Shown one piece after another: positions 14,103 through 40,445 of a DNA stretch of 54,978 bases (within the stretch, counting starts at the first letter, position 1; the number at the start of each line of letters is the position of its first letter). The position numbers and the translations under genes were made by a program. The DNA lies in IMG/VR virus record IMGVR_UViG_3300012930_000006, positions 1 through 54,978 of that record. The stretch is one strand, 5' to 3'. The notes under the pieces are model-generated. The model was not told the origin of the DNA. It was given only the letters and a program-made list of their open reading frames with translations, and made no database searches. Source of the stretch: a virus.

Positions 14103-14120
14103 TCATAGAGGATGGATGTC

Positions 14121-14870
14121 ATGACCCGCATGATCTGGCGTGTGGTCGCGGCGGTAGGTATGATGATTGTCTCGGTTATGCCTATTCTGGCACAAAATAG
14201 TTGGGAAACGCCCGGAGGTTCGCGTGCCCCTGGTGGCGTAATGATGTGTTTGAATTCGCAGGGACAGGCGGTTCCGGTCGATCAATCTGGTGCATGCCCA
14301 AGTGGAGGCGGTGGGGGTGGTGGTGTCACGATCGCGGACGGTGCGGATGCAACAAAGGGCGCAAAGGCTGATAGTGCATGTGCGAGCGACATCGCAACGT
14401 GTACGTTGATATCGCTCGTCAAGCGTCTCAACCAAAGCATCACGACACTGATCGCTGCAGTGACGTCGTCGATTCCCGCCGGAACGTTTCGCATCGGGTA
14501 CACCAGCGACGATCCGTGCGCCAACCTGATTAAAATCCCGATCCCGATCAGCCAGGCGACCAGCACGCAGATCATTTCCGGGACCTCGGCGCAGAAAATC
14601 TATGTCTGTTCATTCGCGCTGATCTCTAGCCCGGGTGAAAACGTAAACCTTATCGAAGGAACTGGAAGCGTGTGCGCGACGGGATCGACCGCGATGCTGG
14701 GATCGACAACTGCAGCGAACGGATTGAGTATTCCGGCAAACGGCGGTCTCACACATGGAAGCGGTGCCGGAACGGTTGCTGGCGCGGTCGCAACGCCAGC
14801 CGACAATGTGTGCCTGACGCAGAGCGGAACGGCTCGGGTGTCGGGAGTCCTCAGCTATGTCAAGCAATAA
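14121..14870 (+). CDS. exported, Gly-rich structural-type protein
   Basis: 249 residues from ATG 14121; ATG 14112 is an in-frame alternative. A Sec signal peptide is clear: basic start, hydrophobic core VVAAVGMMIVSVMPI, cleavage likely after LAQ. A Gly-rich hinge (SGGGGGGGV) and a beta-rich domain with paired Cys (CASDIATC, CANL, CSF, CAT, CLT) follow. This looks like an oxidised extracytoplasmic beta protein. Such a signal is unusual for a virion protein; it may be a receptor-binding or host-modifying factor. No family recognised. Confidence 0.7.
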   Translation: MTRMIWRVVAAVGMMIVSVMPILAQNSWETPGGSRAPGGVMMCLNSQGQAVPVDQSGACPSGGGGGGGVTIADGADATKGAKADSACASDIATCTLISLVKRLNQSITTLIAAVTSSIPAGTFRIGYTSDDPCANLIKIPIPISQATSTQIISGTSAQKIYVCSFALISSPGENVNLIEGTGSVCATGSTAMLGSTTAANGLSIPANGGLTHGSGAGTVAGAVATPADNVCLTQSGTARVSGVLSYVKQ

Positions 14871-14888
14871 CCAGTCCTCAGTGAACCC

Positions 14889-15629
14889 ATGCGCCGCTTG
14901 CTGACCATCTTTGCGCTGTTGCTGAGTGTTGTTGCGGCATATGCGCAGATCCCGCTGACCGGAGCAGGGCGGGGAACTCCGGGAGGAGGGGCAGCGGTCT
15001 TTGCCACCTATACACAGACCGACAACCCAGCGGCACAAGCGACGCCTGGAACTTCTACTGTTACATTTACAGCGGTCAATATTGGTACGGCGGTCTCCAA
15101 TCGGGTTGTCGTAATTACCTTCACGAATGCTGGTGTTATCGCGACCGCAATGACAATTGGTGGCGTGAACGCTACCAAGGCGGTCGAGGAGTCCAGTAGA
15201 GTATCATCGCTTCAAATTTGGTATGCGACGGTTCCGTCTGGGACGACGGCAAATGTCGTTATTTCATTTCCAAGCAACCCGACGAATTGCATTCTTGTTG
15301 CTGGAAATTTCAACAGCGGTGCATCGACAACACCAGCTAATACCCAAACTGGGCAGAGTGCATTATCAAATACGCAGGTATTAAATACGACTATACCAAC
15401 TAGTGGATTTGGTGTCATGGGAATCGTGACACTGAATGGAGTTGAAACACCAACATGGATTAATATGACGAATGTCGGCGGGGATACTACTACCAGCTCA
15501 AATGACGGGTCATCGCAAATTACATTATATACCGCTCATTCCATCACCGCTGGATCTCCTACTACCCTGACCGGAACATTGACAACCCCAACCCAGATTC
15601 ATTCGGTATCAGTGTCATGGGGTCCGTGA
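14889..15629 (+). CDS. exported beta-sandwich-like protein
   Basis: 246 residues. Signal peptide MRRLLTIFALLLSVVAAYAQ with probable cleavage after AYA. The mature part is Thr/Ser/Val-rich with alternating strands (TVTFTAVNIGT, RVVVITFTN), typical of an Ig-like or jelly-roll beta domain. A Gly-rich patch GTPGGGAAVF follows the signal. It overlaps the next gene by 13 bp and is less GC-rich than the portal gene. Likely a surface or adhesion-type component; no family assigned. Confidence 0.68.
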   Translation: MRRLLTIFALLLSVVAAYAQIPLTGAGRGTPGGGAAVFATYTQTDNPAAQATPGTSTVTFTAVNIGTAVSNRVVVITFTNAGVIATAMTIGGVNATKAVEESSRVSSLQIWYATVPSGTTANVVISFPSNPTNCILVAGNFNSGASTTPANTQTGQSALSNTQVLNTTIPTSGFGVMGIVTLNGVETPTWINMTNVGGDTTTSSNDGSSQITLYTAHSITAGSPTTLTGTLTTPTQIHSVSVSWGP

Positions 15630-17155
15630 TCCGCGCACTAGTTGTTGCTGCGGTCGCTCTCCTTTATTTCTCAAGCGAGCCTGCGACGACGTGGATACAT
15701 GGAGGTTTTACTTTCGATTCCACGTGGACGTGCTGGCGCACGCAGGCGTCTGGAGCCTGCCCGTTCACGGCTGGTCAATATTTTAATGCGACTGGCGACG
15801 GATCAACTAATGATGATACGGCCCTGGCCGCCATGATCGCTTATGGTGCTGCGCATAATCCGTCTCAGTTAAAGCTGTATTGGGGAAATGGTACAAACAG
15901 CGTCTTGGGCGGCACCAACATCATCAATTGGAGCCAAGCCAATAACAACGGTGTGCAGAATCTTTTGATCTGGGCGTACGGAGGAAAGGTCGACTACATA
16001 AACGTAGGGTTTCAGGCATTTCAGCAAAACAACTCCACGAGTGCGGCCATCAATACCGTGTCTGCTGGAGCGACCGCGCTTGTGGTTAATGATGGGAACG
16101 AAGGGCTATTTTCGTCCGGAGACATGATCGCCCTCACAGCCGATTGCCTGGACTTTGCGACCGGCGGATATCCGCCGACGTTTCAATTTCATCAGATCGC
16201 AAGAGTGACTAGTCGATCTAGCACAACAGTTAACATCGATGTTTCGACGATTGCCGGATACAAATCAACATATCCTGTCTGCGCCTTGGGTGGCAGCATG
16301 GGTTCAGGCGGTCCAGCGCGCATTTTCAAACTCGATCCGAGTTATGATTCAAACGTGGAAATTCGCGGCCTCACGTTACTCAATCCTGGCGCTTCTCAAT
16401 GGAACATTAATAGTCGTGTCGCGACGCTTTACGATGTAACGTTTCTCAACAGCTCGATCGGACCGAGCGCCAATCAGAACTTCACCTCATTTAATGGTAA
16501 CTTCCCTGTCGGCGCCGAGATCGACAAGGATGCTGATACGATGACGATCTCTGGCGGCACGATTGGGCAAATAGCGGTCCAAAGTGCGAGCCCTACCACG
16601 CTTAATCTGTTGAATTTGGCCATCAGTTGTTCAGTGAACGGCACGGCAATCAATACTACCATCAGAAACTCGACTGTCACCGCCGGCAGTTGCGACGGCC
16701 GAATCGCGCCAGGGCCAACGGGCTACGGTGGCGCTCAATCCTTGGTGGTCGACACTGTCACGTTTCCGGTAGCTACTGCGGACGCATGCGAGGTCGAAAC
16801 CGCAAACGTGTCATTTAGCAGTGGCGTATTTTCGATGTTGAAGTCAAAAAGCAACGCGATCAAAGACACGTTCTTTCGCTGTTTCGTTCCTGGCTTCAAA
16901 TACAAATTTGCATGGCATAATGCGGTGACGTCCAACTGCACCCCGCTGGCCGAGTTCACGGTGTCGGATATCAGCGAGGATGGCAGCAACTACAATGCGA
17001 CGATCTCAAATTGCAGTTGGGGTTCGTGCTCTGGAGCACTTCCGACACCAAGCTGCTCGGGCTCGCCGACGACCTACAGCCTCTACAACTCTCTGGCAAT
17101 CACGCAGACGAATATGGGCGGCTCGCCGAGCCTGCTTGGCTTCGCGGCGCCCTGA
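15617..17155 (+). CDS. exported beta-helix protein, tailspike-like
   Basis: 512 residues. The N-terminus has a hydrophobic segment IRALVVAAVALLYFSSEPA resembling a signal peptide. The segment FNATGDGSTNDDTALAAMIA is the motif that opens many pectate-lyase-like spike domains (GDG-x-x-DD-x-A). The body has many short Asn/Ser/Thr-rich repeats of a right-handed parallel beta-helix. It may bind or cut surface polysaccharide. A spike gene between portal and scaffold is out of the usual order and forms an exported-protein block with the two preceding genes. Confidence 0.72.
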   Translation: MGSVIRALVVAAVALLYFSSEPATTWIHGGFTFDSTWTCWRTQASGACPFTAGQYFNATGDGSTNDDTALAAMIAYGAAHNPSQLKLYWGNGTNSVLGGTNIINWSQANNNGVQNLLIWAYGGKVDYINVGFQAFQQNNSTSAAINTVSAGATALVVNDGNEGLFSSGDMIALTADCLDFATGGYPPTFQFHQIARVTSRSSTTVNIDVSTIAGYKSTYPVCALGGSMGSGGPARIFKLDPSYDSNVEIRGLTLLNPGASQWNINSRVATLYDVTFLNSSIGPSANQNFTSFNGNFPVGAEIDKDADTMTISGGTIGQIAVQSASPTTLNLLNLAISCSVNGTAINTTIRNSTVTAGSCDGRIAPGPTGYGGAQSLVVDTVTFPVATADACEVETANVSFSSGVFSMLKSKSNAIKDTFFRCFVPGFKYKFAWHNAVTSNCTPLAEFTVSDISEDGSNYNATISNCSWGSCSGALPTPSCSGSPTTYSLYNSLAITQTNMGGSPSLLGFAAP

Positions 17156-17377: not shown

Positions 17378-18481
17378 ATGGCCATTCGTGAAGTGGATGC
17401 CGAGGCGATCGGCAATGCGATCATCGCAACCGAGAAGGAAATCGCGGGAGATCCGTGGGGAATCGAAGAGGCTACTCTCGACGAGACGGGTGACCGTACC
17501 GTCGAGATGATGGGCGAGGGCCTCGAGGGCCAGCACGAGCCGGATGACGACGATGACGAAGGCGACGAGGATGACGAGTCCTCGGAGGCATCGGAATCGG
17601 AGGAAGGCGAGGGCGAAGCCGGAGAGGCTGCGGACAAGAGCGCCGATGGCGAGGCCAAGCCGGAACCCAAAGAGGGTGACGGCAAGGAAAAGCCACTGGC
17701 CGAGGTCGCGCCAGATTCGCGCGACCGTGTGCCCGCACGGCGTCTGCGCGAGCAGACCGATCGGACCAAGGCTGTGGAGGCCGAGCGTGATGCGCTCCGG
17801 CAGCAGCTCGAGGCCGAGCGGTCCGATTCAAGGAAGCAATTCGACACGCTCAACTCGCGTTTCGATGCGGTCCTGACTCAGCTCAAGCCACCCGCTCAGC
17901 AGCAGAACGGCGAAGCCAAGCCATCTGCGGTTCCGGATTTCTTCGAAGATCCCAACGCGTTCATTGCGCACCAGACCAAGCCGCTGCTCGACACCGTCTC
18001 GCAACTCCGCAACGACCTTGCGGCGCAGCGGGTCGAGACCAGCATGGCGATGGCTCACAGCAAGCATGGCGACAAGTTCGCCAAGGCTTACGAGGCTGTC
18101 ACCAAGCTTGATCCGCGCAATCCCGACGACAGGGCAACGGTGCAGCGGATTTACAGTTCCGCCAGTCCGGGCGAGGCACTTGTCTCCTGGCACGGCCGTA
18201 ACGAAACCCTGCGTCAGGTCGGAGATGATCCCGATGCGTATGCCGCGCGCTTGCGTAAGGAAGAGCGTGAGGCATTGATGAAAGACCCCGAGTTCCGCAA
18301 GCAGCTTGTCGAGTCGCTGCAAGCGGAGGCATCCACGGGCGATAATGGCAGAGCACGCACCACAGTCCGACTCCCGAAATCGTTGAACGGCGCGGCCGGC
18401 GGAAATGCCGGACGCAATGTGGCTCAGTTCGAGCACGACGATTCGGACAAGTCGGTCGCTGACTCAGCTTGGCGCACGTAA
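17378..18481 (+). CDS. capsid scaffolding protein
   Basis: 367 residues. A very acidic low-complexity region at about 50-95 (DDDDDEGDEDDESSEASESE), then a coiled coil at about 115-160 (RLREQTDRTKAVEAERDALR and onward) and a helical C-terminal half with a basic end. Length, acidity, coiled coil and position between portal and coat genes are all typical of podovirus scaffolds, which guide coat assembly and leave before packaging. GAAAGAGG precedes the ATG. Confidence 0.82.
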   Translation: MAIREVDAEAIGNAIIATEKEIAGDPWGIEEATLDETGDRTVEMMGEGLEGQHEPDDDDDEGDEDDESSEASESEEGEGEAGEAADKSADGEAKPEPKEGDGKEKPLAEVAPDSRDRVPARRLREQTDRTKAVEAERDALRQQLEAERSDSRKQFDTLNSRFDAVLTQLKPPAQQQNGEAKPSAVPDFFEDPNAFIAHQTKPLLDTVSQLRNDLAAQRVETSMAMAHSKHGDKFAKAYEAVTKLDPRNPDDRATVQRIYSSASPGEALVSWHGRNETLRQVGDDPDAYAARLRKEEREALMKDPEFRKQLVESLQAEASTGDNGRARTTVRLPKSLNGAAGGNAGRNVAQFEHDDSDKSVADSAWRT

Positions 18482-18590: not shown

Positions 18591-19754
18591 ATGGCCGTAA
18601 CGAATACGCAAGCCAATAATGTCCTGATCAAATTCCGGAAGGACATCTATCGCGAGTATGTTCGCGAGAACCTGTTCTCGCCCTACATGGGGCAGGACCA
18701 GACGGCAATCATCCGGGTCATCACCGACCTCGACAAGGGCGGTAAGCAAGGTGGCGAACAGATCAACATTCCGTTGATCGCGCGCCTCAATGCGGCCGGC
18801 GTCGGCAAGGGCGTGTTGCGCGGAAATGAAGAGTCGATCGACAACTACGGACAGCGCATGTGGATCGACTGGTCGCGCAACGCGATCGTCATGGACAACG
18901 CCGAGGAGCAGCGTTCGTCCGTCGATCTCTTCGCCGAGGCCAAACCGATGCTTTCGGATTGGGGCAAGGAGAAGCAGCGCGACGAAATCTGTGACGGGCT
19001 CTATGCGCTGCCCTCGACCGCGGCACCGGCTGGCCTCGGTTCGCCGGCGGGGCAGCGGGTCAACGGTCTGCTGTTCGATGCTGCAACGGCGGCCCAGCGC
19101 AACACCTGGATCACCGACAACGCGGATCGCATCCTCGTCGGCAACTCCAACACCGCGAACCTCAGCGCCGGAAACTTTGCGGCGTCGATGCTCAACGTGA
19201 CGCCCGCGATGGTGATCTCGGGTGCTCTCGTCAACCGCATGAAGCGCTCGGCGAAGAAGGCCGATCCGCGCATCCGTCCCTTCAAGCTCAAGGAAAACGG
19301 AACGGAATGGTTCGTGCTCTTCCTCGGTCAGGAACAGTTCCGTGATGCGCAGAACGACGCCTCGATCCTCGCCGCCAACCAGAACTCGCGCGCCCGCGAA
19401 AATCAGGGTTATCTCAAGAACCCGATCTTCGTCGACGGCGATCTGCTCTACAACGGCGTGATCATCCGCGAGATCCCGGAACTCTCGACCAGGGCGCCGG
19501 TATTCTATACGACCGCCGGTCTCGGCGGAACGCGGATCGCGCCGGCTTTCATGTGTGGTCAGACCGCGATGGCGTGGTGCTGGGGCAAGATGCCGACGCC
19601 GACCTTCCTCAAGGAGGATGACTACCAGTTCCTCCGCGGGGCAGGCATCAAGATGGCATATGGTATCGGCAAGGTCGCGAAGCTCAGCCCCGCCAACCTG
19701 TTCAAGGAGTGGGGCGTGTTCACGGGCTTCTTCTCGGCTACCGCCGACGCGTAA
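18591..19754 (+). CDS. major capsid protein
   Basis: 387 residues. The opening (LIKFRKDIYREYVRENLFSP, then YMGQDQTAIIRVITDLDKGG) and the segment GEQINIPLIARLNAAGVGKG fit the P22/N4-type coat family (phage_capsid_3, also called DUF4043), which has the HK97 fold. It follows the scaffold gene and a structured leader. The codon choice is strongly biased to GC-ending codons, as expected for the most highly made protein. Family level is confident; the precise subfamily is not. Confidence 0.88.
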   Translation: MAVTNTQANNVLIKFRKDIYREYVRENLFSPYMGQDQTAIIRVITDLDKGGKQGGEQINIPLIARLNAAGVGKGVLRGNEESIDNYGQRMWIDWSRNAIVMDNAEEQRSSVDLFAEAKPMLSDWGKEKQRDEICDGLYALPSTAAPAGLGSPAGQRVNGLLFDAATAAQRNTWITDNADRILVGNSNTANLSAGNFAASMLNVTPAMVISGALVNRMKRSAKKADPRIRPFKLKENGTEWFVLFLGQEQFRDAQNDASILAANQNSRARENQGYLKNPIFVDGDLLYNGVIIREIPELSTRAPVFYTTAGLGGTRIAPAFMCGQTAMAWCWGKMPTPTFLKEDDYQFLRGAGIKMAYGIGKVAKLSPANLFKEWGVFTGFFSATADA

Positions 19755-19838: not shown

Positions 19839-20351
19839 ATGATCCGCAACAAGTTGATCCGCGGCGCGCTGGCGTGTGCCATCGTCGCAGCCTCGGCGTG
19901 GGGCGCCATCGCGCTCAATGTCGATCAGAACCGCGTCATGCCGGCGCGGCAGAACGTGACCCAGCAGACGAACTACTATCGTCTGAAAATCAACTTCAAC
20001 GATCCGAACATCTCGCAGCCGCAAAAGTTCGGAAAGTTCCTGCAGAACACGTTCATCTCGAGCGTGTCGTGTCACGTCACCACGGCTTTCAACGCCGCGA
20101 CGACGAATATCCTCACGATCGGCACGAACCCGACGACCACGGGCGAGATCGTCGCGGTTGGCGGTGCCAACAAGACGATCAACCTCTCGTCGGCAACCTA
20201 CCAGTCGGTCACGGCCGCGGGATCTCTCGGCCTGTCGACGACAAGCGATGCCGACCATACGCTATATGCCGCTTACAGCCAGACCGGCACCGCGGCGACG
20301 GCTGGTGCGGCGACGTGCATCATCGAGTTCGTGCCGAACAACGACATGTGA
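19839..20351 (+). CDS. exported beta-rich protein after coat gene
   Basis: 170 residues with an N-terminal signal-like segment GALACAIVAASAWGAIAL. The mature part is Thr/Ala/Asn-rich and probably beta-stranded. GAAGGAGG precedes the ATG, a very strong site. Position straight after the coat gene and ahead of a terminator would suit a head decoration protein, but the signal-like N-terminus argues for membrane contact or for a processed virion protein. Unrecognised family. Confidence 0.65.
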   Translation: MIRNKLIRGALACAIVAASAWGAIALNVDQNRVMPARQNVTQQTNYYRLKINFNDPNISQPQKFGKFLQNTFISSVSCHVTTAFNAATTNILTIGTNPTTTGEIVAVGGANKTINLSSATYQSVTAAGSLGLSTTSDADHTLYAAYSQTGTAATAGAATCIIEFVPNNDM

Positions 20352-20944: not shown

Positions 20945-20950
20945 TCCGCG

Positions 20951-21346
20951 ATGGTCAGCGCATATCGTACGCAAAACGACCTCATCACCCAGACACTCAA
21001 GAACCTCGGGGTGATGTCGGCGGGCAATGCCGCCGACCCGGAGGATTTTGCGTATGTCAAAGAAAACGTCGACCCGACGATCCGGATGCTGGCGTCGCTC
21101 GACATCTGCTACATCGGCGACGTCGAAACCATTCCCGGAGAATTGTTCTCGGCGCTCGCCAATGTTCTCGCGGGCGAATGTGCGGACAAGTTCGGGTCGA
21201 CGACAGAGGATCGGATTTCGCTCAAGAACAACGGTCTAGGCGGCGCTGGAAACGTGCCTGTTGGTGCCGGGTCCGGCGCACAAATCCTCCGCCAGATCAA
21301 CCGCGGGCGCCCGACTTACGAGACGCTACGGACGATGTCGTTCTGA
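20951..21346 (+). CDS. head-tail connector/adaptor protein (P22 gp4-like)
   Basis: 131 residues, mainly helical, opening with YRTQNDLITQTLKNLGVMSA. Helical proteins of this size located directly before the gp10-like gene are the tail accessory factor (gp4-type) that docks on the portal ring. The call rests on position, size and helical content, with no catalytic motif. Its stop overlaps the next ATG (TGATG). Confidence 0.7.
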   Translation: MVSAYRTQNDLITQTLKNLGVMSAGNAADPEDFAYVKENVDPTIRMLASLDICYIGDVETIPGELFSALANVLAGECADKFGSTTEDRISLKNNGLGGAGNVPVGAGSGAQILRQINRGRPTYETLRTMSF

Positions 21347-23082
21347 TGGCAACCGGAAGGCCGATCGACATTCCATGGCCGCTGTCGTCGTTTCCTGGCG
21401 CTATGCCGCAGGAATCGGCCGGTCGGCTCATCAACTGCTATGCCGAGCCGCTTGGACAAACTCAGGCCGGCACCGGCGGCCGAGCGACGAAAGAACCACA
21501 AGTCGTCTGGCGCGGATGTCCCGGGTTCACGCCGTTCGCGCTCACGGGACAGACCGGTTATCGCGGCGGGCTGATCGTCAATAACCTTTCGTATGAGTGC
21601 TATAAGGACAATGCTTCTACGGTAGATGCGGCCGGCGCCATTGCATCTCTTGGCAATTTTCCTGGAACCAAAAAGGTCTCGATCGCGCGCAATCAGGCGG
21701 CATCTCCGGACGTCGTTGCGGTCGACATCGACAATGGCGCGTTCACACTGTCCGGCGGCGGTGCGCCGACGGCGTATAACGGCGGCGGAAATCTGCCACA
21801 GCCCAATGGGGTGTGCTATCACCATGGGTATTTTCACTTCTCGATCGGTGACAATCGGATCTTTGCGTCTGGCATCAATGCGCTGACGCAGAACGCCAAC
21901 ACATTCACGACATGCAATGCAGTTGCGTCCGCCGCGTTGCTGCGACCGATTGCCTATGCCGACCTGGTGCTCGCGTTCACGACGGGCTCGATCGAAATCT
22001 ACCAGGACACGGCGCAGCCGACACCGGACTATCCCTACACGCGACTGCAGGTTCTTAATGTCGGCCTGCTGGAAGCAAATGCGATTGCGGGATTCGAGGA
22101 CACCTTTGCCGATCTGCTATGGGTGGCGCAAGACTTCGGTGTCTACCGCATGCCGCCCAACTCGATCGGTTACGACAAGGTGTCGCCTCCGGATCTCGAT
22201 CGCCTGATCGAAGCGCAGCACAAGCTCGGCAACACGCTCGAGGCATATTGCTACATCGTCCAGGGTAAGAAGTTCTGGGGCCTGTCGTGTCCCGACTGGA
22301 CGTGGGAGGTAAACCTAAGCACCCTCGGGAAAGGTGTGGGGTGGCACGAGCGATCATCAATCAACGCCGCTGGAAACTTCAAACGCTGGCGCGCATCGGG
22401 TGGTCACCCGGCGTTCGGCAAGTGGCTCATGGGCGACACGATGAGCGAGTATCTCCACTTCGTCGATGACACGATGAACGATGAGAACGGCGCGGTGTTG
22501 TTGATGCGGATGGAATCCGGATCGGTGTCGGATTTCCCGAATCGTCTAAGGGTGCCGAGAGCGGATTTCAATTTTGTGACCGGTGTTGGACAGCCGACGC
22601 GCACTCTGACGATGAACGTGATCGACGCGGTATCGGGAACGGGGAATCAAATCCGCCTTATGGTGCTGAGCACCGCGCGCCTTGTGAGCGGCGACAATGC
22701 GACGATCGCGAGCATTCTTGGCACTGTCGAGGCCAACGGGACGTGGCCACTACAGGTCATCAACGGGCAGAATGTCGAGCTTGTCGGCTCCGCCTTCGTC
22801 CATGCCTACGTCTCGGGCGGGACGCTGACCGATCTCACGACGCCGCCCAACGTCAAGGCGCCGACGGTCGAACTCACCTGGTCGGATGACGACGGCGTGC
22901 TCTGGCGTAACCCGCGTCAACAGCCGCTCGGCGAGATCGCCAAGGCCAGGACGACTCGCATCTCGGTCAAGCACACCGGTATGTCCGGACCTCAGGCGCG
23001 GCGGTGGAGACTTTCGATCTCCGATCCGGTATACCGTGGATTTCTGGGAGCGACGCAGTCAACCGATCCGAAGGATTTTTGA
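21346..23082 (+). CDS. packaged-DNA stabilisation protein (P22 gp10-like)
   Basis: 578 residues. The N-terminal segment PWPLSSFPGAMPQESAGRLI then NCYAEPL is characteristic of the phage stabilisation family (P22 gp10), a tail-hub protein that plugs the portal after packaging. The rest is beta-rich (propeller-like) with repeated short strands. Length is close to the family's norm (about 470 to 600). It is followed by ejection-protein genes, as in P22-like genomes. Confidence 0.86.
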   Translation: MATGRPIDIPWPLSSFPGAMPQESAGRLINCYAEPLGQTQAGTGGRATKEPQVVWRGCPGFTPFALTGQTGYRGGLIVNNLSYECYKDNASTVDAAGAIASLGNFPGTKKVSIARNQAASPDVVAVDIDNGAFTLSGGGAPTAYNGGGNLPQPNGVCYHHGYFHFSIGDNRIFASGINALTQNANTFTTCNAVASAALLRPIAYADLVLAFTTGSIEIYQDTAQPTPDYPYTRLQVLNVGLLEANAIAGFEDTFADLLWVAQDFGVYRMPPNSIGYDKVSPPDLDRLIEAQHKLGNTLEAYCYIVQGKKFWGLSCPDWTWEVNLSTLGKGVGWHERSSINAAGNFKRWRASGGHPAFGKWLMGDTMSEYLHFVDDTMNDENGAVLLMRMESGSVSDFPNRLRVPRADFNFVTGVGQPTRTLTMNVIDAVSGTGNQIRLMVLSTARLVSGDNATIASILGTVEANGTWPLQVINGQNVELVGSAFVHAYVSGGTLTDLTTPPNVKAPTVELTWSDDDGVLWRNPRQQPLGEIAKARTTRISVKHTGMSGPQARRWRLSISDPVYRGFLGATQSTDPKDF

Positions 23083-24553: not shown

Positions 24554-25435
24554 ATGGGCATCTTCGACATCTTCTCGAACAAAAACGCGCAGGATGCCGC
24601 GAACGCGCAGATCGCCGGTATCAACAAGGGATACGGCGATCTCTCGACGCAGTTCGGTCAGGGGCGCGATGCGCTCACTACCAACTACACCGCGGGACTG
24701 CAGCCCTATTTGCAGAACTATCAGACCGCAACGGCTGGCACGACCGCGCTGGGAAATGCGCTCGGTCTGAATGGCCCACAGGGAAACCAAGCCGCGACGG
24801 CCGCATTCTGGGCAAACCCGGCGATTCAATCGCAACTCGACATCGGCTCGCAAAACGTGCTGCGCAATCAGGCGGCAACGGGGCAGCTTAATTCGGGAAA
24901 GACTAATGTCGACTTGCAGAATTATGGCCAGCAAGTCGCATCGCAGGGCTGGAACAACTACATCTCGCAACTGCAGCCGTTCCTCGGTGCGGGCAATGCT
25001 GCGGCCGGCGGTATAGCGGGCGTCGACACCGGTCTTGGTGCTGGCCTCAATCAGTCGTTCATGAACCAGGGCAATGCGGCTTATGGGGCGCAGACCGGCA
25101 TCGGCAACGCGAACGCAAATGCGGACTTGGCGAAGAACGCCGCAAGCGGAAACGCCGTCAATGCCCTGATGCAGGGCGCCAATCTTGCGGCCTTCGCATT
25201 CTCGGACGAACGGCTCAAGGAGGACATCGAACCTGTCGGCGAGCTCTACGACGGCAGCAACGTCTACCGCTACCGCTATCGGGGCGATCCGACCCCGCAT
25301 ATTGGCCTGATCGCGCAAGAGGTCGAGGTGCGCACGCCTGAGGCGGTCATCGAGGTTGGTGGCTTCAAGGCGGTCGACTATCGCAGGGCCACACAATACG
25401 CGTCAAAACTGGCACAGTTCGTCGAGGCGGCTTGA
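24554..25435 (+). CDS. ejection-type protein with C-terminal S74 chaperone domain
   Basis: 293 residues. Residues 1-210 are Ala/Asn/Gln/Gly-rich and helical, like P22 gp7-class DNA-transfer proteins. From about 215 the segment FAFSDERLKEDIEPVGELYD is the start of a Peptidase_S74 intramolecular chaperone, with the Ser217-Lys222 dyad that cleaves before Ser217. GLIAQEVE and the DYRRA end also fit. S74 domains usually end tail spikes or fibres. Here one follows an ejection-like protein and is short (about 75 residues). Self-cleavage is predicted from the dyad. Confidence 0.8.
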   Translation: MGIFDIFSNKNAQDAANAQIAGINKGYGDLSTQFGQGRDALTTNYTAGLQPYLQNYQTATAGTTALGNALGLNGPQGNQAATAAFWANPAIQSQLDIGSQNVLRNQAATGQLNSGKTNVDLQNYGQQVASQGWNNYISQLQPFLGAGNAAAGGIAGVDTGLGAGLNQSFMNQGNAAYGAQTGIGNANANADLAKNAASGNAVNALMQGANLAAFAFSDERLKEDIEPVGELYDGSNVYRYRYRGDPTPHIGLIAQEVEVRTPEAVIEVGGFKAVDYRRATQYASKLAQFVEAA

Positions 25436-25438
25436 TCC

Positions 25439-29834: not shown

Positions 29835-30875
29835 ATGCCTCTCCCTACCATATCCACCCTCCGACGGATAGTCTTGACAATTGCCATTTTACTTGCTCCG
29901 GGCGCAAGCCACGGGGCGGGCTCGCTTCCTGTTGCCCTGGCGCAACAGGTCGATGTCAACGGGCGGCCACTGGTCGGGGCATTGCTCTACCTCTACGTCG
30001 TCGGGACTGTTGCCCAACCGCAACTAGCGTTTCAGGATACGGGCCTCACCGTGCCATTGCCGTGGCCCGTGCAGGCCGATGCGAACGGCCGGCTGCCGAT
30101 GTTCTATCTGGCGGACGGGGCGATCCATGCCCGCCTGACGGACGCCAACGGGTCGGTACAATTCGACTATCCTTCGATGCTGGTAATCGGCCCTTCGGGT
30201 GGCGGTTCCGCCGGTGCCGGTGTCGATCCGACCACGATATTCTCGACCGGAGACATAAAATTCAGACCAACTGGAGAGACCCTTTCGGGATGGGTAAAGC
30301 TTAACGGACTGACGATCGGATCTTCGCTCTCGGGCGCAACTGGGCGCGCCAATGCCGACACGCAAGCGTTGTTCATTTATTTGTGGACAAACTGCCCGGA
30401 TGCGCATTGCCCAGTGCTCAGCGGGCGGGGGGCGACTGGCCTCGCGGACTTCAATGCCAACAAGCAGATCACGTTGCCTGACTGGAGAGCTCGCGTCATG
30501 GTTGGTCTCGACGACATGGGCACGAGCGCGGCAGGTCGGTTCACCGGCGTGCCATTCTCTGGTTCAGATACGGCAACGACGCCGGGTGGCACTGGGGGAG
30601 AGAACACACATACGCTCTCGGCTGCGGAAATCCCGGCGCACAATCATGGTATAACGGAGCCGAACGGAGGCTTGGGACATTTTCATTTCAACCCGGACAC
30701 GGTGACGGTTCAATCCGGTGTGGGTGCCAACGTGCTTGGAATCGCCGGAGGTGGAGTTACAAACGGAACGTCGAAATCCGTGACAGGAATTACCATCAAT
30801 AATAGCACGGGCGGTGGAGGCGCACATAACGTGATGCAGAACTTTCAACTTGGCACTTGGTATATGCGGCTCTGA
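29835..30875 (+). CDS. tail fibre/collar-type protein with signal peptide
   Basis: 346 residues. A signal-like N-terminus (RRIVLTIAILLAPGASHGAG) precedes a beta domain with QQVDVNGRPLVGALLYLYVV. The C-terminal half has collar/fibre features: TGETLSGWVKLNG, LPDWRARVMVGLDDM and a His-containing AAEIPAHNHGITEPNG segment, common in trimeric tail-fibre tips. The protein ends NFQLGTWYMRL. Probable adhesin; an export signal on it is unusual. Confidence 0.78.
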   Translation: MPLPTISTLRRIVLTIAILLAPGASHGAGSLPVALAQQVDVNGRPLVGALLYLYVVGTVAQPQLAFQDTGLTVPLPWPVQADANGRLPMFYLADGAIHARLTDANGSVQFDYPSMLVIGPSGGGSAGAGVDPTTIFSTGDIKFRPTGETLSGWVKLNGLTIGSSLSGATGRANADTQALFIYLWTNCPDAHCPVLSGRGATGLADFNANKQITLPDWRARVMVGLDDMGTSAAGRFTGVPFSGSDTATTPGGTGGENTHTLSAAEIPAHNHGITEPNGGLGHFHFNPDTVTVQSGVGANVLGIAGGGVTNGTSKSVTGITINNSTGGGGAHNVMQNFQLGTWYMRL

Positions 30876-30877: not shown

Positions 30878-31294
30878 ATGAACCGAAATCCGAAAACTTT
30901 GGTGCTACCGGAGTTCTCTAATCGGGAGGATCTATATCTGCCGTTCGGCGTATTCGACGACGACACGGGCGACCCGGTTGATATGACCGCGCTGGGTTGG
31001 ACATTCCAATTCGAGATTCGCCGCCTTCCGCCGCATTGGGCCGGAAATATCATCGCGGGCCCGTGGTACGACGACGATTTTCCGACGCCAATCATAATTC
31101 TTGCGCTCGGCACGGGGCCAAACTTCGTCAACGTGGTCGACGTTGGACAAGGGCTGATCTGGGTGAGCGAATCGAACATGGTCAAGCTGCGGCACCGCAC
31201 CTATTCAGCGGCGCTGGTGGGCAATGACGGGACGCGTCAGTTCCAACTGTTCAAGGCGACGCTGCCGATGCAATATGGGGGGGTTACGAACTAA
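30878..31294 (+). CDS. hypothetical tail-region protein
   Basis: 138 residues. Beta-rich (REDLYLPFGVFDDDTGDPVD, FQFEIRRLP). Such small beta proteins often attach fibres or spikes. Starts two bases after the upstream stop and overlaps the next ATG by one base. No family assigned. Confidence 0.65.
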   Translation: MNRNPKTLVLPEFSNREDLYLPFGVFDDDTGDPVDMTALGWTFQFEIRRLPPHWAGNIIAGPWYDDDFPTPIIILALGTGPNFVNVVDVGQGLIWVSESNMVKLRHRTYSAALVGNDGTRQFQLFKATLPMQYGGVTN

Positions 31295-31836
31295 TGGCTA
31301 GCCCGGTCAACCTTCGCATCTCGGCGCCAATCCCGTTTCCCGCGCTCGTTCGTGGTGCCGCGCCTATCGCGCTCACGAAGGCAAACGGGGTTTGGACGGT
31401 CTCGCTCGACGTCCAGAATCTCGGCGCGGTCGTTCCGCTGATCGCGCAATATGCCAGCGACTATGTTGTGGTTTGGGATTCGGTCGGCCTGACATTCGTC
31501 AAAGTGTCGCTAACCGGTCTAGGACTCGGCGGCGCGCGGCTGCAGCGTTCGGTGCTCGCGAGTCCGATCGTGATTGCGGCGAATGATCAAATCATAAACT
31601 TCAACATCAACGCAGGAGCTCCAACCTGCACGCTGCCATCGTCGATATCCCGAAACGGAGTTCCGTTGACGTTCCAGGATGTCGGCGGTCATGCCGCCGC
31701 GCACAATCTCACATTCGCGTTCACCGGAGGTGAACTCGCGGACGGTCTCGCCGCTCCGGCCATTACAGTGAACTACGGAAAGATGACTTTCACCCCGATG
31801 AATGATGGCGTCAATACGGGATACTCTATCTCATGA
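31294..31836 (+). CDS. hypothetical fibre-region protein
   Basis: 180 residues, beta-rich with many Thr, Val and Ala; the segment TCTLPSSISRNGVPLTFQDV resembles repeats seen in fibre or spike stalks. The stop overlaps the spike start (ATGA). Likely a fibre or spike connector. Confidence 0.65.
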   Translation: MASPVNLRISAPIPFPALVRGAAPIALTKANGVWTVSLDVQNLGAVVPLIAQYASDYVVVWDSVGLTFVKVSLTGLGLGGARLQRSVLASPIVIAANDQIINFNINAGAPTCTLPSSISRNGVPLTFQDVGGHAAAHNLTFAFTGGELADGLAAPAITVNYGKMTFTPMNDGVNTGYSIS

Positions 31837-33848
31837 AACGGATGTTTTTCGGTTTTGCAATCTCTGTTGCGATTGCTCTCTCTTCTGGTGGAGTCTACGC
31901 ACAACAGCCTGCCGCAGGAAGGATCCAGATCGGGCAAGGTGCGGCGTTGCCCGCGTGGCTGGCGATGACGGGGGACTGCTCGCTTGCAAGCACGGGCGCG
32001 ATCATATGCTTGAAATCAAACGGTACGGCGTTTGGCACCGCCGCATTCCAGAACACCGGAACGTCTGGTGCGACGATTCCATTTCTCAACGGCGCGAATA
32101 CATGGTCCGGCACCAACATCTGGAGCGCTGACGGATATTTCAAATCTGGTCGGCCATGGGCCGACGTGCGCGCTTACGGCGCGGTCGGAGATGGTGTGAC
32201 CGACGACAGTGCCGCGTTTGCAAACGCTGCCGCCGCGGTCATTGCGCTGGCTGGTCAAGGTGGTGTCGTCTACGTCCCTCCGGGAACCTATTGTCTGTTT
32301 TCCGGATTCACCGTCAATAGCGCCGTCTCAGTCAATCTGATCGGGGCTGGATGGCAGAATGAGATTCTGAGTGTTTGCGGGCATAACGTCGCGCTCGTTA
32401 CGCTCGGAGGTGGCCGTCATTCGGCGCGTGACCTGTTTCTGCTCGGCTATAATGGATCGAATGCTTCCGCCACATCGGCGACGATTCATACGACATCGAC
32501 CTGCGTCGACTGTCTCATTTATCACGACTATATTGGCCTTGGTTATTTCGGCATTTGGAATGAGGGTGTCGATACCGAGATATGGACCTCGAATGTCATC
32601 AATACCTATAACACCGCGGTCTATGATTCAGCCAACGCGATGTGGCTCGTTCGATCTAAGATCGACAATCCATGGTCGGTCAGCGTTCCTGCAATCGGTG
32701 CCAGTTTTTCATCTTGGACTAATGCGCACGCTTATGTCGTTGGGGATGTCGTATCGTCTGGCGGATTTTATTTTCAGTGTTCGCAAAGCGGTACATCCGG
32801 AGGGTCGTTTCCCGCTGGACCGTATGTTTACGGAATAACGATCGTCGACAATGGGGCGCGCTGGCTGCTCGCGACCGCGACGAATGCTCATGGTCTTGAC
32901 ATCACGACAGGCGCGTCCGAGACGCACGTCCTGCAAAGCGATTTCTCCGGTGCCTACGGCGGGTCGTCGATCAGGATCGACAACGACGGTGCGGGGACTG
33001 CGCCGTTCCTGACCGCGATAACCGACAGTGTCGTGAGCCAATCTGTCAACAACTCGCTCAACGCGGTTGCTGGCTCTGGACTCATGCTAAAAGGCAATGA
33101 GATGGCCGGCGGTCTAGCTGCTGGCGGCTCGACGCTTGCGTTCCAGCTCGCGTGGGTTGGGGATGCAACGGTCGTTGGAAATAGCTTTATCAGCGCGCCA
33201 AACTCCATATTTCTGGGGGCTGGAGTTAATACATCGATCGTCGGCAATACGCTCGGATCGACTGCCGGCATTACGGTCGCCGCTGGTGTCACGGATTTCA
33301 CGATCTCCGCGAACCAGCCGTCGGCGAAGTATGGAGGGTCGTGCAGCATTACGGTCGCGGCCGGCGCGAGTACTCGCTATTCGATCGTCAACAACAATCC
33401 GGGTTGCACGATCACGAATGCGGGCACTGGCGCCAGTCAATGCGTGTCGGCAAATGGGACTTGCACGCATCAGATCATTGCGCTGACCTCGGGGTCTGGC
33501 ACTCTAGCGCAGAACTCGACTTCATTCATGCTTGGCTTTCTCCCAGCCGGCGGCTCGGCAGAGGCCGTCGCTTCGGCGCTCTGTCCGTTGGCCGGAACCT
33601 TCAAGAACCTCTATCTTCAATCCAATGCGCCGGCGGCTGGCCAGACGCTCACCGCTACATGGCGCGTGAACGCGGGAGACACGACCATCACCTGCGCGAT
33701 CACCGGAACCGGGACGACGTGCAACGACACGACGCACACGGCTGCCTGCACGGCGGGGCAATCCTACACGTTGAAGCTTGTCACGTCGGCGACATCGGGA
33801 ACAATTACCTCCGTCAACGGTGGGATCGAGTTTGACAACAGCCCTTGA
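31833..33848 (+). CDS. tailspike, pectate-lyase-like beta-helix, with signal peptide
   Basis: 671 residues. Signal peptide MKRMFFGFAISVAIALSSGG with cleavage likely after VYA. At about 105-160 is the spike-opening segment DVRAYGAVGDGVTDDSAAFA, then VYVPPGTY, the standard start of pectate-lyase-fold depolymerases; long beta-helix coils follow (NAVYDSANAMW, LDITTGASETHV). The end is a beta domain. Probably cuts or binds host polysaccharide. It is the last rightward late gene before a convergent terminator. Confidence 0.85.
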   Translation: MKRMFFGFAISVAIALSSGGVYAQQPAAGRIQIGQGAALPAWLAMTGDCSLASTGAIICLKSNGTAFGTAAFQNTGTSGATIPFLNGANTWSGTNIWSADGYFKSGRPWADVRAYGAVGDGVTDDSAAFANAAAAVIALAGQGGVVYVPPGTYCLFSGFTVNSAVSVNLIGAGWQNEILSVCGHNVALVTLGGGRHSARDLFLLGYNGSNASATSATIHTTSTCVDCLIYHDYIGLGYFGIWNEGVDTEIWTSNVINTYNTAVYDSANAMWLVRSKIDNPWSVSVPAIGASFSSWTNAHAYVVGDVVSSGGFYFQCSQSGTSGGSFPAGPYVYGITIVDNGARWLLATATNAHGLDITTGASETHVLQSDFSGAYGGSSIRIDNDGAGTAPFLTAITDSVVSQSVNNSLNAVAGSGLMLKGNEMAGGLAAGGSTLAFQLAWVGDATVVGNSFISAPNSIFLGAGVNTSIVGNTLGSTAGITVAAGVTDFTISANQPSAKYGGSCSITVAAGASTRYSIVNNNPGCTITNAGTGASQCVSANGTCTHQIIALTSGSGTLAQNSTSFMLGFLPAGGSAEAVASALCPLAGTFKNLYLQSNAPAAGQTLTATWRVNAGDTTITCAITGTGTTCNDTTHTAACTAGQSYTLKLVTSATSGTITSVNGGIEFDNSP

Positions 33849-35248: not shown

Positions 35249-35282
35249 GTGCGTGGTTTCCTGTGGATGAAAGGATGAATGA

Positions 35283-35663: not shown

Positions 35664-35700
35664 AGGTCCCTCCTTGGCTTGGGTTGAGAGCCGGGCGGGT

Positions 35701-35739: not shown

Positions 35740-35745
35740 GCGATT

Positions 35746-35943
35746 ATGAAACCGTCAACCCACGAAATCACGAAATCAGAGAAAAAGAGCAGGGCGGCCG
35801 AAACCGGCACCCCGGTCATGGTTCGGCTGCAGTCTGAATTATTGGCACTTGTCGATGGCTATAGGCGTCGACAGGTCGATTTGCCGAACCGGCCGGAGGC
35901 TATCCGACGGATGGTCGAGATCGCGGCGCGGGGTGGCAGATGA
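35746..35943 (+). CDS. ribbon-helix-helix regulator
   Basis: 65 residues. A polar, basic N-terminus precedes TPVMVRLQSELLALVDGYRR (strand and first helix) and LPNRPEAIRRMVEIAARG (second helix), the pattern of Arc/CopG-type RHH DNA-binding proteins. They bind as dimers of dimers to repeated sites, which fits the twin repeats just upstream. The stop overlaps the next gene by four bases (ATGA). Confidence 0.8.
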   Translation: MKPSTHEITKSEKKSRAAETGTPVMVRLQSELLALVDGYRRRQVDLPNRPEAIRRMVEIAARGGR

Positions 35944-36320
35944 CCCTAAAATACGCACTGATTTTTGCGATGATGACCGGACCTGCCCTTGCCGAAGAAA
36001 CCCGGACATGGACGCTGTTTACTCAGTCTGTCGGCGGTACCGTATCGATGAGTCACGGCCTGACTAAACGCGAATGTGACTTCGCATTGGCGCGTGCAAC
36101 TGGACAACCAACGACTCAAGAAGGCAGAGAGCAGAAACGCGCCGCGATCGAAGGAATTGTCGAGCGTGGGAAAAACTGGTGCCGAAAGCATCCTGACGGG
36201 GCTATCTCCGAAGGCTCCGAGTCCTACAACTGCAACAAAGACGGCACTCTCAACAATGTTGGGTGGCCCGGCCCGCCCGTCATGAGTGGGGATATGAAGC
36301 ACGCGGAGTGCTTCCAGTGA
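35940..36320 (+). CDS. small periplasmic protein with signal peptide
   Basis: 126 residues. MTLKYALIFAMMTGPALAEE is a short signal peptide with probable cleavage after ALA. The mature part holds four Cys (ECDF, WCRK, YNCNKD, AECF) that could form two disulphides. Function unknown; no lipobox. Overlaps both neighbours by four bases. Confidence 0.68.
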   Translation: MTLKYALIFAMMTGPALAEETRTWTLFTQSVGGTVSMSHGLTKRECDFALARATGQPTTQEGREQKRAAIEGIVERGKNWCRKHPDGAISEGSESYNCNKDGTLNNVGWPGPPVMSGDMKHAECFQ

Positions 36321-36882: not shown

Positions 36883-36889
36883 TGGGAAA

Positions 36890-37365: not shown

Positions 37366-37785
37366 ATGAACGTCTGCGCCATCGCCTTGGTCAAGCTCGC
37401 GGCCGCGGCAAGCTGCCTGATATCCGGCGACAGTATTGCGCTCGGGCTCGCCCAGGCGATGCCAGAATGCGCGGTCGATGCGCAGAACTGCATCCCGTCC
37501 GGCGCCGTTGTGGCCCGCGTTCACGCTTCGCCCATCCTGATCGTCTCCGCCGGATCCAATGATCCGCACTCGGCGAATCTCGCCGCCAACCTGCGGGCGA
37601 TCCGGGCCCGCGCGACCGGCCGCGTGATCTGGATCGAGCCGACCGACTGGCACGCTGCCGCCGTGATGCGCGGCATTGCGGCCAGCGCGGGCGATTCGAC
37701 CGTCGCATTCAAGGCTGGCCCGGACCATATTCACCCGAGCAGCAACCGCGCGCTGGCGGCCGCCGTCCGTCGCGCCATGAGATGA
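37366..37785 (+). CDS. SGNH/GDSL-type hydrolase
   Basis: 139 residues. Block I reads ISGDSIALGLAQ with catalytic Ser23; SAGSNDP (Asn65) fits block III; GPDHIHPSS supplies the Asp120-x-x-His123 pair. This is a compact SGNH esterase of lipase, acyl-esterase or deacetylase type. A Cys-containing hydrophobic N-terminus (VKLAAAASCLISG) could be a signal or a buried strand. It lies seven bases before the endolysin, so it probably helps break the envelope. The substrate is unknown. Confidence 0.78.
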   Translation: MNVCAIALVKLAAAASCLISGDSIALGLAQAMPECAVDAQNCIPSGAVVARVHASPILIVSAGSNDPHSANLAANLRAIRARATGRVIWIEPTDWHAAAVMRGIAASAGDSTVAFKAGPDHIHPSSNRALAAAVRRAMR

Positions 37786-37792
37786 GGACCGC

Positions 37793-38440: not shown

Positions 38441-39153
38441 CCCTCACACACCACCATCTCGCAAAACTCGTCGCATGGCTCTACGGTGCGACCTCGAATG
38501 AGCCCGAGAAGGTCGTCGAAGCTGCCGCAGTCATGACGGCGCTTCGCGGCGAGTTTCCGACGCTGGAGGTTCTCTATACCAGCAACCCGGATGCGGTCGC
38601 GGTCTTTTCCCTCATTCGGATCGATGGGTATTTGATCGTCATCTATCGCGGCTCTTACACAGGTCGCGATTGGCTGCTGGATATCTTGGTCAAGGAAATG
38701 GACCCAGCCGGACGGCCTTCGATCAAGCAGGTTCACAGCGGATTCTACAGCGGCACCGTCGAAGCGTCCGACATCATCATGATGTTCTATCGCGATGACG
38801 ACAAAATCATCATCGCGGCACATTCTCTCGGCGCCGCGCGTGGCGAGATCGAGTGTGAGCACCTTGAAGCAATCGGAATCACGCCGCATCTTCTCGTCAC
38901 ATGGGGCCATCCGGCACCGTTCAAACCATCGACGATGCCTGCGCCAAAATATCCGATCGTCAAATACCGCAACGACGCGGAAAACGGCGAGGAAGATCCG
39001 GTCACCTATTCGACCGACATAGCCGGCTATCGACACCGGACACCTTTCATCGACGTGAGCGCAGTGCCCGTTGACCTGCATTGGTTTGATCCCTTCGCTT
39101 TGCATCACTTCGCACTCTACGAGAGCGTCACACCCGCGACGGAGGTTCCATGA
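38437..39153 (+). CDS. class 3 lipase-like hydrolase
   Basis: 238 residues. The pattern YRGSYTGRDWLLDI, HSGFY, then IIIAAHSLGAA with nucleophile Ser130 is that of lipase class 3 (usual G-H-S-L-G is A-H-S-L-G). An Asp in RNDAENGEEDP and a His in FALHHFALYE could complete the triad. No signal peptide is visible. Placed between endolysin and holin-like genes and overlapping both, it likely attacks membrane lipid during lysis. Confidence 0.78.
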   Translation: MTLTHHHLAKLVAWLYGATSNEPEKVVEAAAVMTALRGEFPTLEVLYTSNPDAVAVFSLIRIDGYLIVIYRGSYTGRDWLLDILVKEMDPAGRPSIKQVHSGFYSGTVEASDIIMMFYRDDDKIIIAAHSLGAARGEIECEHLEAIGITPHLLVTWGHPAPFKPSTMPAPKYPIVKYRNDAENGEEDPVTYSTDIAGYRHRTPFIDVSAVPVDLHWFDPFALHHFALYESVTPATEVP

Positions 39154-39353
39154 GAGTCGGTCAGATCCTGCTGCTCACCGGTGCGTTCTGCAGCCTCGCG
39201 TTGTTCGCCTCGCTTGAGGTGTTCGCGCCCGCCGAAGTGTGGCACCTCAATGGGCCCGTTGCGTATCTCGGTCGCGGTTTCATCGCCATGGCCGTGCTCG
39301 GTGTGTTTGTCATGGCGTCCGCGCGCCTGGTGCGCGGTTTCGATTTTTCCTGA
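39150..39353 (+). CDS. small membrane protein, holin-like
   Basis: 67 residues with two hydrophobic helices (QILLLTGAFCSLALFASLEV and AYLGRGFIAMAVLGVFVMAS) and a basic end. Size, topology and lysis-module position fit a class II holin. ATGA overlap with the lipase gene. Another holin candidate follows. Confidence 0.65.
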   Translation: MRVGQILLLTGAFCSLALFASLEVFAPAEVWHLNGPVAYLGRGFIAMAVLGVFVMASARLVRGFDFS

Positions 39354-39375
39354 CTGGGCTTAAAGGAGCCAAATA

Positions 39376-39783
39376 ATGGATATGCCAACTCCATCGCAGG
39401 TCAAGGCAGCCGGCCGCCATGCTCTCACGGCGGGGGCGGCGATCGTCGGAACTCTGGCGGCTATGCATCTCATCACGGCGGACGAGGCCGGAAAAATCAC
39501 CGACGCGTTCTCTCAGATCGGCTCAGGTCTCGCCAGCCTTGCGACCGGCTTGAGCACGATCGCAATCGTTCTTTCCGGCTTTTATGCGAGCTGGACCGCA
39601 AGCAAGAAATCGCAAATCGCTGCCGTTGGTGCTCTTGCGCAGGTCCCGGGATCCGGTGTTGCCGGCGTCATCACAACGCCGACGCCCGAAGGTCGCGAGC
39701 TCGCGACGTCTATTCCGGTACCAACTGTCGTCACTGCCGGGACCCAGGATGCGAAGGTGATAGCGAAGGCGGTGACACCATGA
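39376..39783 (+). CDS. membrane protein, holin-like
   Basis: 135 residues. Two hydrophobic segments, about 15-35 (HALTAGAAIVGTLAAMHLIT) and about 50-72 (LASLATGLSTIAIVLSGFYA), then a soluble Val/Thr/Pro-rich tail. This fits a holin seen in phages of related hosts. AAAGGAG precedes the ATG. Overlaps the next gene by four bases. Which of the two candidates is the lethal holin cannot be told. Confidence 0.65.
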   Translation: MDMPTPSQVKAAGRHALTAGAAIVGTLAAMHLITADEAGKITDAFSQIGSGLASLATGLSTIAIVLSGFYASWTASKKSQIAAVGALAQVPGSGVAGVITTPTPEGRELATSIPVPTVVTAGTQDAKVIAKAVTP

Positions 39784-40445
39784 AACGCAACAGCATCATG
39801 ACCGGTGTGCTCGTGCTATCGGCCGCTGTCGCCGTGGCTATCATCATGTTTGCGATGCCTGCGCATGCACAGGCGCCCCAGCCACGTCCGCGTCCGCCGT
39901 TGACCGGCGACGCTGTGAAAGACATCAAGAACGCGATCGGTGGCCAAAATCAGGGCAGCGACGATGCTGCGCAAACCTCAAGCGGCGGGACACGGGCCAG
40001 CGACAAGCTCGCCTCGATCCTCGCGAAGCCGTTCAACGACTTGGCCGACTTCATCAATACGGACGCCGCCGACGCGGCTACCCTGGCAACCGCGATCCCT
40101 GGTCTGCAGGACGGCCATGGGCAGCAATGCTGGATGGCGATGGGGCAGTTCACCGCGGTCCTCAAGGCCCACCCGATCCCAATAACGCTACACGCCGCGA
40201 CCGACCTCGAGGCGTTTCGGCTCGCCAACATGGCGGCTAACAATCTGTGCTCCAACGTGCACTGTACGCAGGTTTTTTCCGACCTCTCGAATGCGGTTCA
40301 GCAGGTTGCCGGCCAGATTGGCGGCGCCATCGTGAGCGGCGGGCTGCAGATCCCGAGCCTCAATAGCCTGTGTTCCAAGGTTCCCCAGGTCATCGTCGCA
40401 GCCCCGGTCGATGTGCCGGCACCTGCCATTCCCACCAAGCCGTAG
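39780..40445 (+). CDS. exported protein in lysis region
   Basis: 221 residues. Signal peptide (TGVLVLSAAVAVAIIMFAMP, cleavage after AHA), a Pro-rich stretch QAPQPRPRPPLTGD, then an Ala-rich helical domain with several Cys (QCWM, NLCSNVHCTQ, SLCSK). No lipobox. It could span the periplasm as an outer-membrane-facing lysis factor, but resemblance to spanins is only loose. Confidence 0.6.
   Translation: MKRNSIMTGVLVLSAAVAVAIIMFAMPAHAQAPQPRPRPPLTGDAVKDIKNAIGGQNQGSDDAAQTSSGGTRASDKLASILAKPFNDLADFINTDAADAATLATAIPGLQDGHGQQCWMAMGQFTAVLKAHPIPITLHAATDLEAFRLANMAANNLCSNVHCTQVFSDLSNAVQQVAGQIGGAIVSGGLQIPSLNSLCSKVPQVIVAAPVDVPAPAIPTKP

Follow-up and report, generated by a model that had tools for sequence, protein, structure and literature searches.

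Sec signal peptides predicted on outer virion proteins of a P22/Pam1-type podophage

Signal peptides in the window and its relatives

The viral contig analysed here (IMG/VR record IMGVR_UViG_3300012930_000006; "the window" means this whole stretch of 54,978 bases) derives from a P22/Pam1-type podophage and encodes predicted Sec signal peptides on several proteins, among them putative outer parts of the virion. Genes are named by their first position. The virion genes follow the P22/Pam1-type order, with TerL at 6334, the portal at 12096, the scaffold position at 17378, the coat at 18591, head closure protein Hc3 at 21346, ejection-type genes at 24554–29806, the fibre at 29835 and the spike at 31833. 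The portal, coat, Hc3 and ejection genes stand in the standard order of the group, and a head-binding domain is present in 29835 (residues 24–116). What departs from the group is the presence of signals on the outer proteins 19839, 29835 and 31833, and the window phage is a variant, not a typical member, of this virion group. Its coat protein has relatives in 80 viral contigs that were fetched, in a Rhizobiales metagenome-assembled genome and in Bradyrhizobium sp. YR681, and it also matches those of the Pseudanabaena phages Pam1, Pan3 and Pam5. In YR681 the coat gene lies on contig NZ_AKIY01000059.1, and the strain also has a fibre with a signal. The phages of this group are soil viruses, with Bradyrhizobium-type hosts. 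A relative of the fibre at E<=1e-30 occurred in 18 of the 296 genomes sampled (host family, Bradyrhizobium/Rhizobiales-type).

An earlier note on this DNA had listed Sec signals or signal-like starts at eight positions, and a hydrophobic N-terminus is indeed present at all of them (14121, 14889, 15617, 19839, 29835, 31833, 35940 and 39780). Signals were called with a heuristic of our own that requires a positive n-region, a hydrophobic core and suitable -3/-1 cleavage residues. It recognised 10/10 known Escherichia coli signal peptides, and in 18 phage genomes it falsely accepted 3 of 2109 internal Met codons (0.14%) and 11 of 947 shuffled N-termini (1.2%). Seven of the eight starts passed as Sec/signal peptidase I signals, with charged n-region, hydrophobic core and AxA-type site. 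The eighth, 15617, has the hydrophobic stretch and is graded as signal-like only, because the -3/-1 cleavage motif is absent. A weak signal-like start at 37366 had escaped the earlier list. None of the portal, scaffold, coat, Hc3 and ejection-type proteins of the window passed the heuristic. For three proteins the cut site was reset by homology (cement ...WGAIA/LNVDQ, fibre ...GASHG/AGSLP, spike ...GGVYA/QQPAA). Two other export routes were considered and rejected: the Tat motif S/T-RR-x-F-L-K occurred in 0/81 signals (RR in 5), and the lipobox Cys expected at +1 for signal peptidase II was absent, mature fibres beginning with A, Q, S or P and cements mostly with L, I, Y, T or A.

The earlier note had called for a comparison with related phages, which revealed a divide between outer and inner proteins. 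Gene calling covered the window plus 17 related contigs, and the 16 genomes with both a portal and a coat gene were used for counts. Signals were found on 61 of 111 genes in outer-protein slots versus 1 of 136 inner virion and packaging genes (p=1e-25), and in 36 of 513 other genes. The sole inner match, in TerL, was judged to be a spurious alternative start; portal, scaffold, coat, adaptor, Hc3 and ejection proteins carried no signals in any of the 16 genomes. The cement protein was signal-bearing in 14 genomes and the fibre in 12, or 13 with G007, where the heuristic misses a signal that is clear by eye. The first gene after the homologue of 31294 had a signal in 14 genomes and a signal-like start by eye in the other two (G029 and G006). 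Spikes following that homologue are mostly unrelated in sequence, yet signal-bearing. Between portal and scaffold, 21 of 63 genes had signals.

Could these signals be artefacts of wrong start codons or of chance hydrophobicity? Start codons are predictions, and some, such as that of 14889, have no clear ribosome site. However, false positives of 0.1–1% stand against signals that 41 fibres and 36 cements have kept despite wide divergence. Moreover, the window fibre has no in-frame ATG or GTG between its start and codon 50, and its only TTG codons in this stretch are 14 and 50; translation of its signal is therefore very probable. We therefore regard an artefact as highly improbable.

Signal-bearing and signal-less forms of the outer proteins

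Which of the signal-bearing proteins belong to the virion? The earlier note had treated all of them as putative virion proteins, and it had missed that 19839 resembles a capsid cement protein and that the fibre is of the head-binding kind. Mature 19839 was modelled with 40 homologues (predicted local distance difference test, pLDDT, 85). The four best-matching solved structures were GP4 8h89_J (Z 9.7), Pam1 7eel_H (Z 9.2; Foldseek E 8e-5), KHP30 7dn2_1 (Z 9.2) and KHP40 7dou_4 (Z 8.0), all of them cement proteins or capsids containing them; the next structure reached Z 6.6. The gene lies directly 3' of the coat gene, and the cement genes Pam1_06 and Pam5_06 are placed likewise. By hhalign no sequence link to the Pam5 cement or to KLEP18-1 gp12 was found; the link to cement came from the predicted fold together with a weak profile match to 26de_W (E 0.055). 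On the strength of this model, the assignment of 19839 as a capsid cement protein is well supported.

The role of 29835 as a head-binding virion fibre is likewise well supported. Residues 24–116, next to a predicted signal of residues 1–27, match the head-binding domains of Pan3 (9vyg, Z 12.6, root mean square deviation 1.5), Pam1 (7eeq, Z 10.7), P22 (1lkt, Z 9.6) and Sf6 (7sg7, Z 9.5). The mean pLDDT of the fibre model was 69, with good confidence in the head-binding domain and parts of the rest only.

The fibre family exists in two natural forms. We fetched 80 of 281 matched contigs, plus further contigs, and obtained 75 distinct sequences, 41 signal-bearing and 34 signal-less. Signal-less fibres begin M-AGT, while signal-bearing ones show an AxA-type site followed by the same AGT or by QGT. 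Ala occupies position -1 in 32/41 signal-bearing fibres and position -3 also in 32/41; among the signal-less fibres, Met directly precedes the shared start in 30/34, and L (a TTG-type start) in three more. The tailspikes of Pam1 and Pan3 also begin at the head-binding domain right after Met, with no signal. Related upstream DNA with terminator and ribosome site stands directly before either ATG-signal or ATG-AGT (for example L211 versus L183 and L195). Since each of 18 genomes holds a single fibre, the signal-bearing form takes the place of the signal-less one. The fibre tree requires five signal switches, and well-supported branches force three of these. One further arrangement was seen in L243, where the AGT domain is preceded, instead of by a plain signal or Met, by a long N-terminal extension whose last residues are AFA.

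The cement family gave an analogous picture. It comprised 36 signal-bearing sequences, and signal-less ones in L017, L018, L019, L026, L034, L081 and Rhizobium phage RHph_Y1_10. The first six start within 1–2 residues of the mature start of the signal forms. In the cement tree, the four signal-less cements that were included form one clade, and RHph_Y1_10 sits on a long, uncertain branch.

These boundaries bear on the suggestion of the earlier note that the signals might be used as membrane anchors or stay uncleaved. The outer parts would then be tethered to the inner membrane, and virions would be completed there. For cement and fibre this is disfavoured, because the AxA-type site that ends the signal lies where the signal-less orthologue begins. 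For 15617, with its hydrophobic N-terminus lacking a cleavage motif, an anchor may still apply. As a general explanation we consider membrane anchoring quite improbable.

The spike 31833 is well supported as a virion protein, too. In Pam5, anchor and spike body form one unsignalled protein, whereas the window has two genes and a signal on the body only. The earlier note had counted a collar-type fibre and a spike among the signal-bearing proteins; 29835 has a collar-type C-terminal part (phrog_8763) and 31833 a pectate-lyase-type domain. For 14121, 14889 and 15617, which sit in a slot of variable content between the portal and scaffold genes, a virion role is plausible. Several slot proteins, including 14121, share the motif Q..[FW].TPGGS...MCLN..QAVPC right behind the signal. 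In other genomes this slot (L141/L142 of G008, L124/L125 of G040) holds very large Cys-rich genes of up to 1594 aa, several with signals, and variable outer proteins are thus concentrated there. For 35940, 37366 and 39780 a place in the virion was considered and dropped, as the searches gave no support; for 35940 and 39780 the description in the earlier note is therefore unsupported. After the spike region of some relatives (L135/L136 of G030, L137/L138 of G032, L128/L129 of G021) lie signal-bearing genes whose products have N-termini (ADLPTKAP...) that resemble, by eye, Omp25/RopB-type outer-membrane barrels; they are possible lysogenic-conversion genes.

Might the exported proteins act mainly in the envelope or outside the cell, by masking receptors against superinfection, as decoys or by trimming polysaccharide, without being stable parts of the virion? 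Signal-bearing neighbours without virion evidence (35940 and 39780) fit this idea, and so does the existence of a secreted tailspike-like protein of related fold, the Tat-signal-bearing WceF of Pantoea (PMC7949094). However, each genome has a single fibre and a single cement gene, both at standard virion positions, the signal-less orthologues are virion candidates elsewhere, and the head-binding and cement folds are kept. We consider a mainly envelope-directed role unlikely, though it deserves more weight than the other alternatives.

Exported proteins of disulfide-forming bacteria tend towards even Cys numbers. We therefore counted Cys parity, only among proteins with any Cys. Even numbers were found in 31/34 signal-bearing fibres, 30/32 signal-bearing cements and 14/16 spikes, compared with 18/32 signal-less fibres and, among inner proteins, 33/77 in total (portal 6/16, major coat protein 7/16, Hc3 8/16, adaptor 7/15, g20432 5/14). 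Scaffold and ejection proteins are almost Cys-free. A fibre Cys pair, in two alternative positions, was present in 30/41 signal-bearing versus 0/34 signal-less sequences (p=5e-12), and a single Cys within the first 90 residues in 0/41 versus 11/34. Two signal-less fibres nested in a signal-bearing clade, L195 and L210, each keep a different Cys of the pair. Within the window, mature cement (2), fibre (2) and 14121 (8) have even numbers, the exceptions being the spike (15) and 14889 (1).

Cys parity also bears on the idea of dual targeting, according to which export would be inefficient or saturated and unprocessed cytoplasmic copies would enter the virion, the exported share being waste or serving a second role. 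The free variation of signals among homologues and the less usual SHG cleavage site of the window fibre are in line with it. On the other hand, an extension of 20–30 hydrophobic residues would sit on the head-binding N-terminus, and Cys parity together with the exact mature boundary indicate that the processed form is the functional one. Dual targeting thus appears rather unlikely.

Table 1. Features of the window, with strand and basis of assignment. Slashes mark predicted cleavage sites; relatives are the 16 genomes used for counts.
Feature	Positions	Strand	Basis
Portal protein, no signal	12096..14102	+	phrog_156 E 4e-78; signal in 0/16 relatives
Variable-slot protein (plausible virion protein), Sec signal (...PILA/QNSWETPGG), 8 Cys, post-signal motif TPGGS...MCLN..QAVP	14121..14870	+	heuristic; motif comparison
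Variable-slot protein (plausible virion protein), Sec signal (...AAYA/QIPLTG), 1 Cys	14889..15629	+	heuristic; no clear ribosome site, low codon score
Variable-slot protein (plausible virion protein), signal-like hydrophobic N-terminus without good cleavage site, 12 Cys	15617..17155	+	heuristic
Scaffold, no signal, no Cys	17378..18481	+	placed between portal and coat as in Pam5; signal in 0/16 relatives
Major coat protein, no signal	18591..19754	+	phrog_334 E 2e-68; PDB 7eel Pam1 E 2e-43
Predicted cement Sec signal peptide, 25 aa, MIRNKLIRGALACAIVAASAWGAIA/L	19839..19913	+	heuristic; boundary from relatives
Putative mature capsid cement protein, jelly roll, 2 Cys	19914..20351	+	predicted fold versus cement structures; homologue in Rhizobium phage RHph_Y1_10
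Head closure Hc3, no signal	21346..23082	+	phrog_578
Three ejection-type proteins (24554, 25439, 27302), no signal, no Cys	24554..29806	+	24554 by PHROG match; other two by position
Predicted fibre Sec signal peptide, 27 aa, ...GASHG/AGSLP	29835..29915	+	heuristic; homologues; no in-frame ATG/GTG before codon 50
Tailspike-type head-binding domain of fibre	29916..30182	+	structure matches; phmmer E 3e-7
Collar-type C-terminal part of fibre	30183..30875	+	phrog_8763 E 1e-48; Gp10_C weak, below cut-off
Small tail protein, no signal, relative of Pam5_17	30878..31294	+	profile E 1.5e-9, two-sequence comparison
Stand-alone spike anchor, no signal	31294..31836	+	profile match to Pam5_18 residues 18-168, E 7e-17, two-sequence comparison
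Spike body, Sec signal (...GGVYA/QQPAAG), pectate-lyase-type domain, 15 Cys; start overlaps 31294 stop	31833..33848	+	PF12708 E 9e-12; phrog_14558
Small protein with signal, 4 Cys, no tie to virion	35940..36320	+	heuristic
Protein with signal, after holin-like gene, no tie to virion	39780..40445	+	heuristic

Elsewhere in the window, a tRNA-Met adjoins a tRNA-Pro at the left end (179–331, +), and two genes are of methyltransferase type (1772–3112, +, and 41599–42678, -; MT-A70 and N6_N4_Mtase). A NusG/RfaH-type antiterminator domain (4800–5405, +; PF02357 E 1e-12) may take part in late-gene control. Within the packaging module, an O-antigen ligase-like membrane protein (8005–9321, +; Wzy_C, E 2e-8) could change host surface polysaccharide. 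Upstream of the portal, a 455-aa protein kept in most relatives (9929–11296, +; cluster c12) appears ATP-grasp-like by eye and gave no Pfam or PHROG match. A Phage_VG64 family protein (48911–49294, -; PF25682, E 2e-52) has a lipoprotein-like start (LGAC).

Proposed export and late assembly of outer virion parts

Taken together, the sequences strongly support export, with predicted signals that appear genuine and cleavable and a mature form that would be the functional one. From this we infer that the proteins are in fact exported and cleaved, that disulfides form and that the parts join the heads at lysis. Our preferred reading, to which we assign a probability of roughly two in three (0.66), is that outer virion parts pass into the periplasm, lose their signals by cleavage, in most cases acquire disulfide bonds there and are joined to the heads at lysis. 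The earlier note had offered export of spikes with addition during or after lysis as one solution to the puzzle of cytoplasmic assembly; the evidence favours this solution, with strong sequence support for its export half, whereas the timing of addition is inferred.

On this reading, events would run as follows. Late in infection, the cement, the head-binding fibre, the spike and probably the proteins of the portal–scaffold slot would be made with cleavable Sec signals. They would be exported to the periplasm, trimmed to the N-terminus of their signal-less relatives and, for the most part, stabilised there by disulfide bonds. Meanwhile, heads made of coat, portal, tail hub and ejection proteins, together with the unsignalled anchor 31294, would be put together and packed inside the cytoplasm. 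Once the envelope has been opened by holin and endolysin, the two pools may meet, and the exported parts could then attach from outside by means of the head-binding domain, cement fold and anchor. Late addition is feasible, since the P22 tailspike, which is added last, binds finished heads in vitro.

Several observations weigh against this reading. The cement and fibre signals are uncoupled: G008 and G040 combine an unsignalled cement with a signalled fibre, and about 10 records show the reverse. Cement usually stabilises packed heads, and it would reach them late if it stayed outside until the cell lyses. As the conserved Cys pair is missing from the window fibre and the number of Cys in the window spike is 15, the Cys argument rests on the families and not on every protein of the window. 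Related sequences are not independent, and a paired test of signal versus Cys pair was never contrary, with too few pairs for significance. The signal predictor is home-made, and the group is known from contigs or prophages only. As cement and fibre signals vary independently, export seems to be decided gene by gene, and one coordinated signal switch for all outer proteins was rejected. We think it rather probable that the phage builds a two-compartment virion, in which cytoplasmic packed heads are fitted at lysis with a Sec-exported, disulfide-bonded outer coat of cement, fibres and spikes, a trait gained and lost gene by gene at the initiator codon.

If export and late addition are true, decoration and spike addition must fall at or after lysis, and the host Sec and disulfide systems are part of phage morphogenesis. 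Phages would gain disulfide-hardened exteriors, which may suit soil. The same protein occurs in nature with and without a signal, a paired comparison that makes the question directly testable. For annotation, a signal peptide would then be no argument against identity as a virion part.

Comparison with known systems

In the textbook view, tailed phages are cytoplasmic assemblies. The tailspikes of P22 and Sf6 are signal-less proteins that fold in the cytoplasm; their N-terminal head-binding fold is that of the window fibre (Z 9.5–9.6). In open-licence PubMed Central (PMC) text, we found no description of Sec-exported virion proteins of tailed phages, and the only precedent found there in which an export signal accompanies a tailspike-like fold was WceF of Pantoea stewartii. 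This enzyme of a bacterial exopolysaccharide gene cluster combines such a fold with a Tat signal and is no virion part (PMC7949094). It thus resembles the window fibre in fold and in carrying an export signal, but differs in using Tat instead of Sec and in not belonging to a virion.

Rhizobium phage RHph_Y1_10 encodes a related coat protein directly followed by a cement homologue (hhalign 98.5%, E 3e-15), and neither this homologue nor the other head and tail proteins tested carried a signal. The cements of GP4, KHP30 and KHP40 share the jelly-roll fold with 19839 (Z 8.0–9.7) and were, with Pam1, the only matches above Z 6.6; the window cement, which is made with a Sec signal, was compared with these three by fold only. 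The Pseudanabaena cyanopodophages Pam1, Pan3 and Pam5 have a similar gene order and a related coat protein, and the likeness extends to the cement fold (Pam1) and the tailspike head-binding domain (Pam1 and Pan3). However, their own cement, fibre and spike carry no signal, and in this the window phage differs from them.

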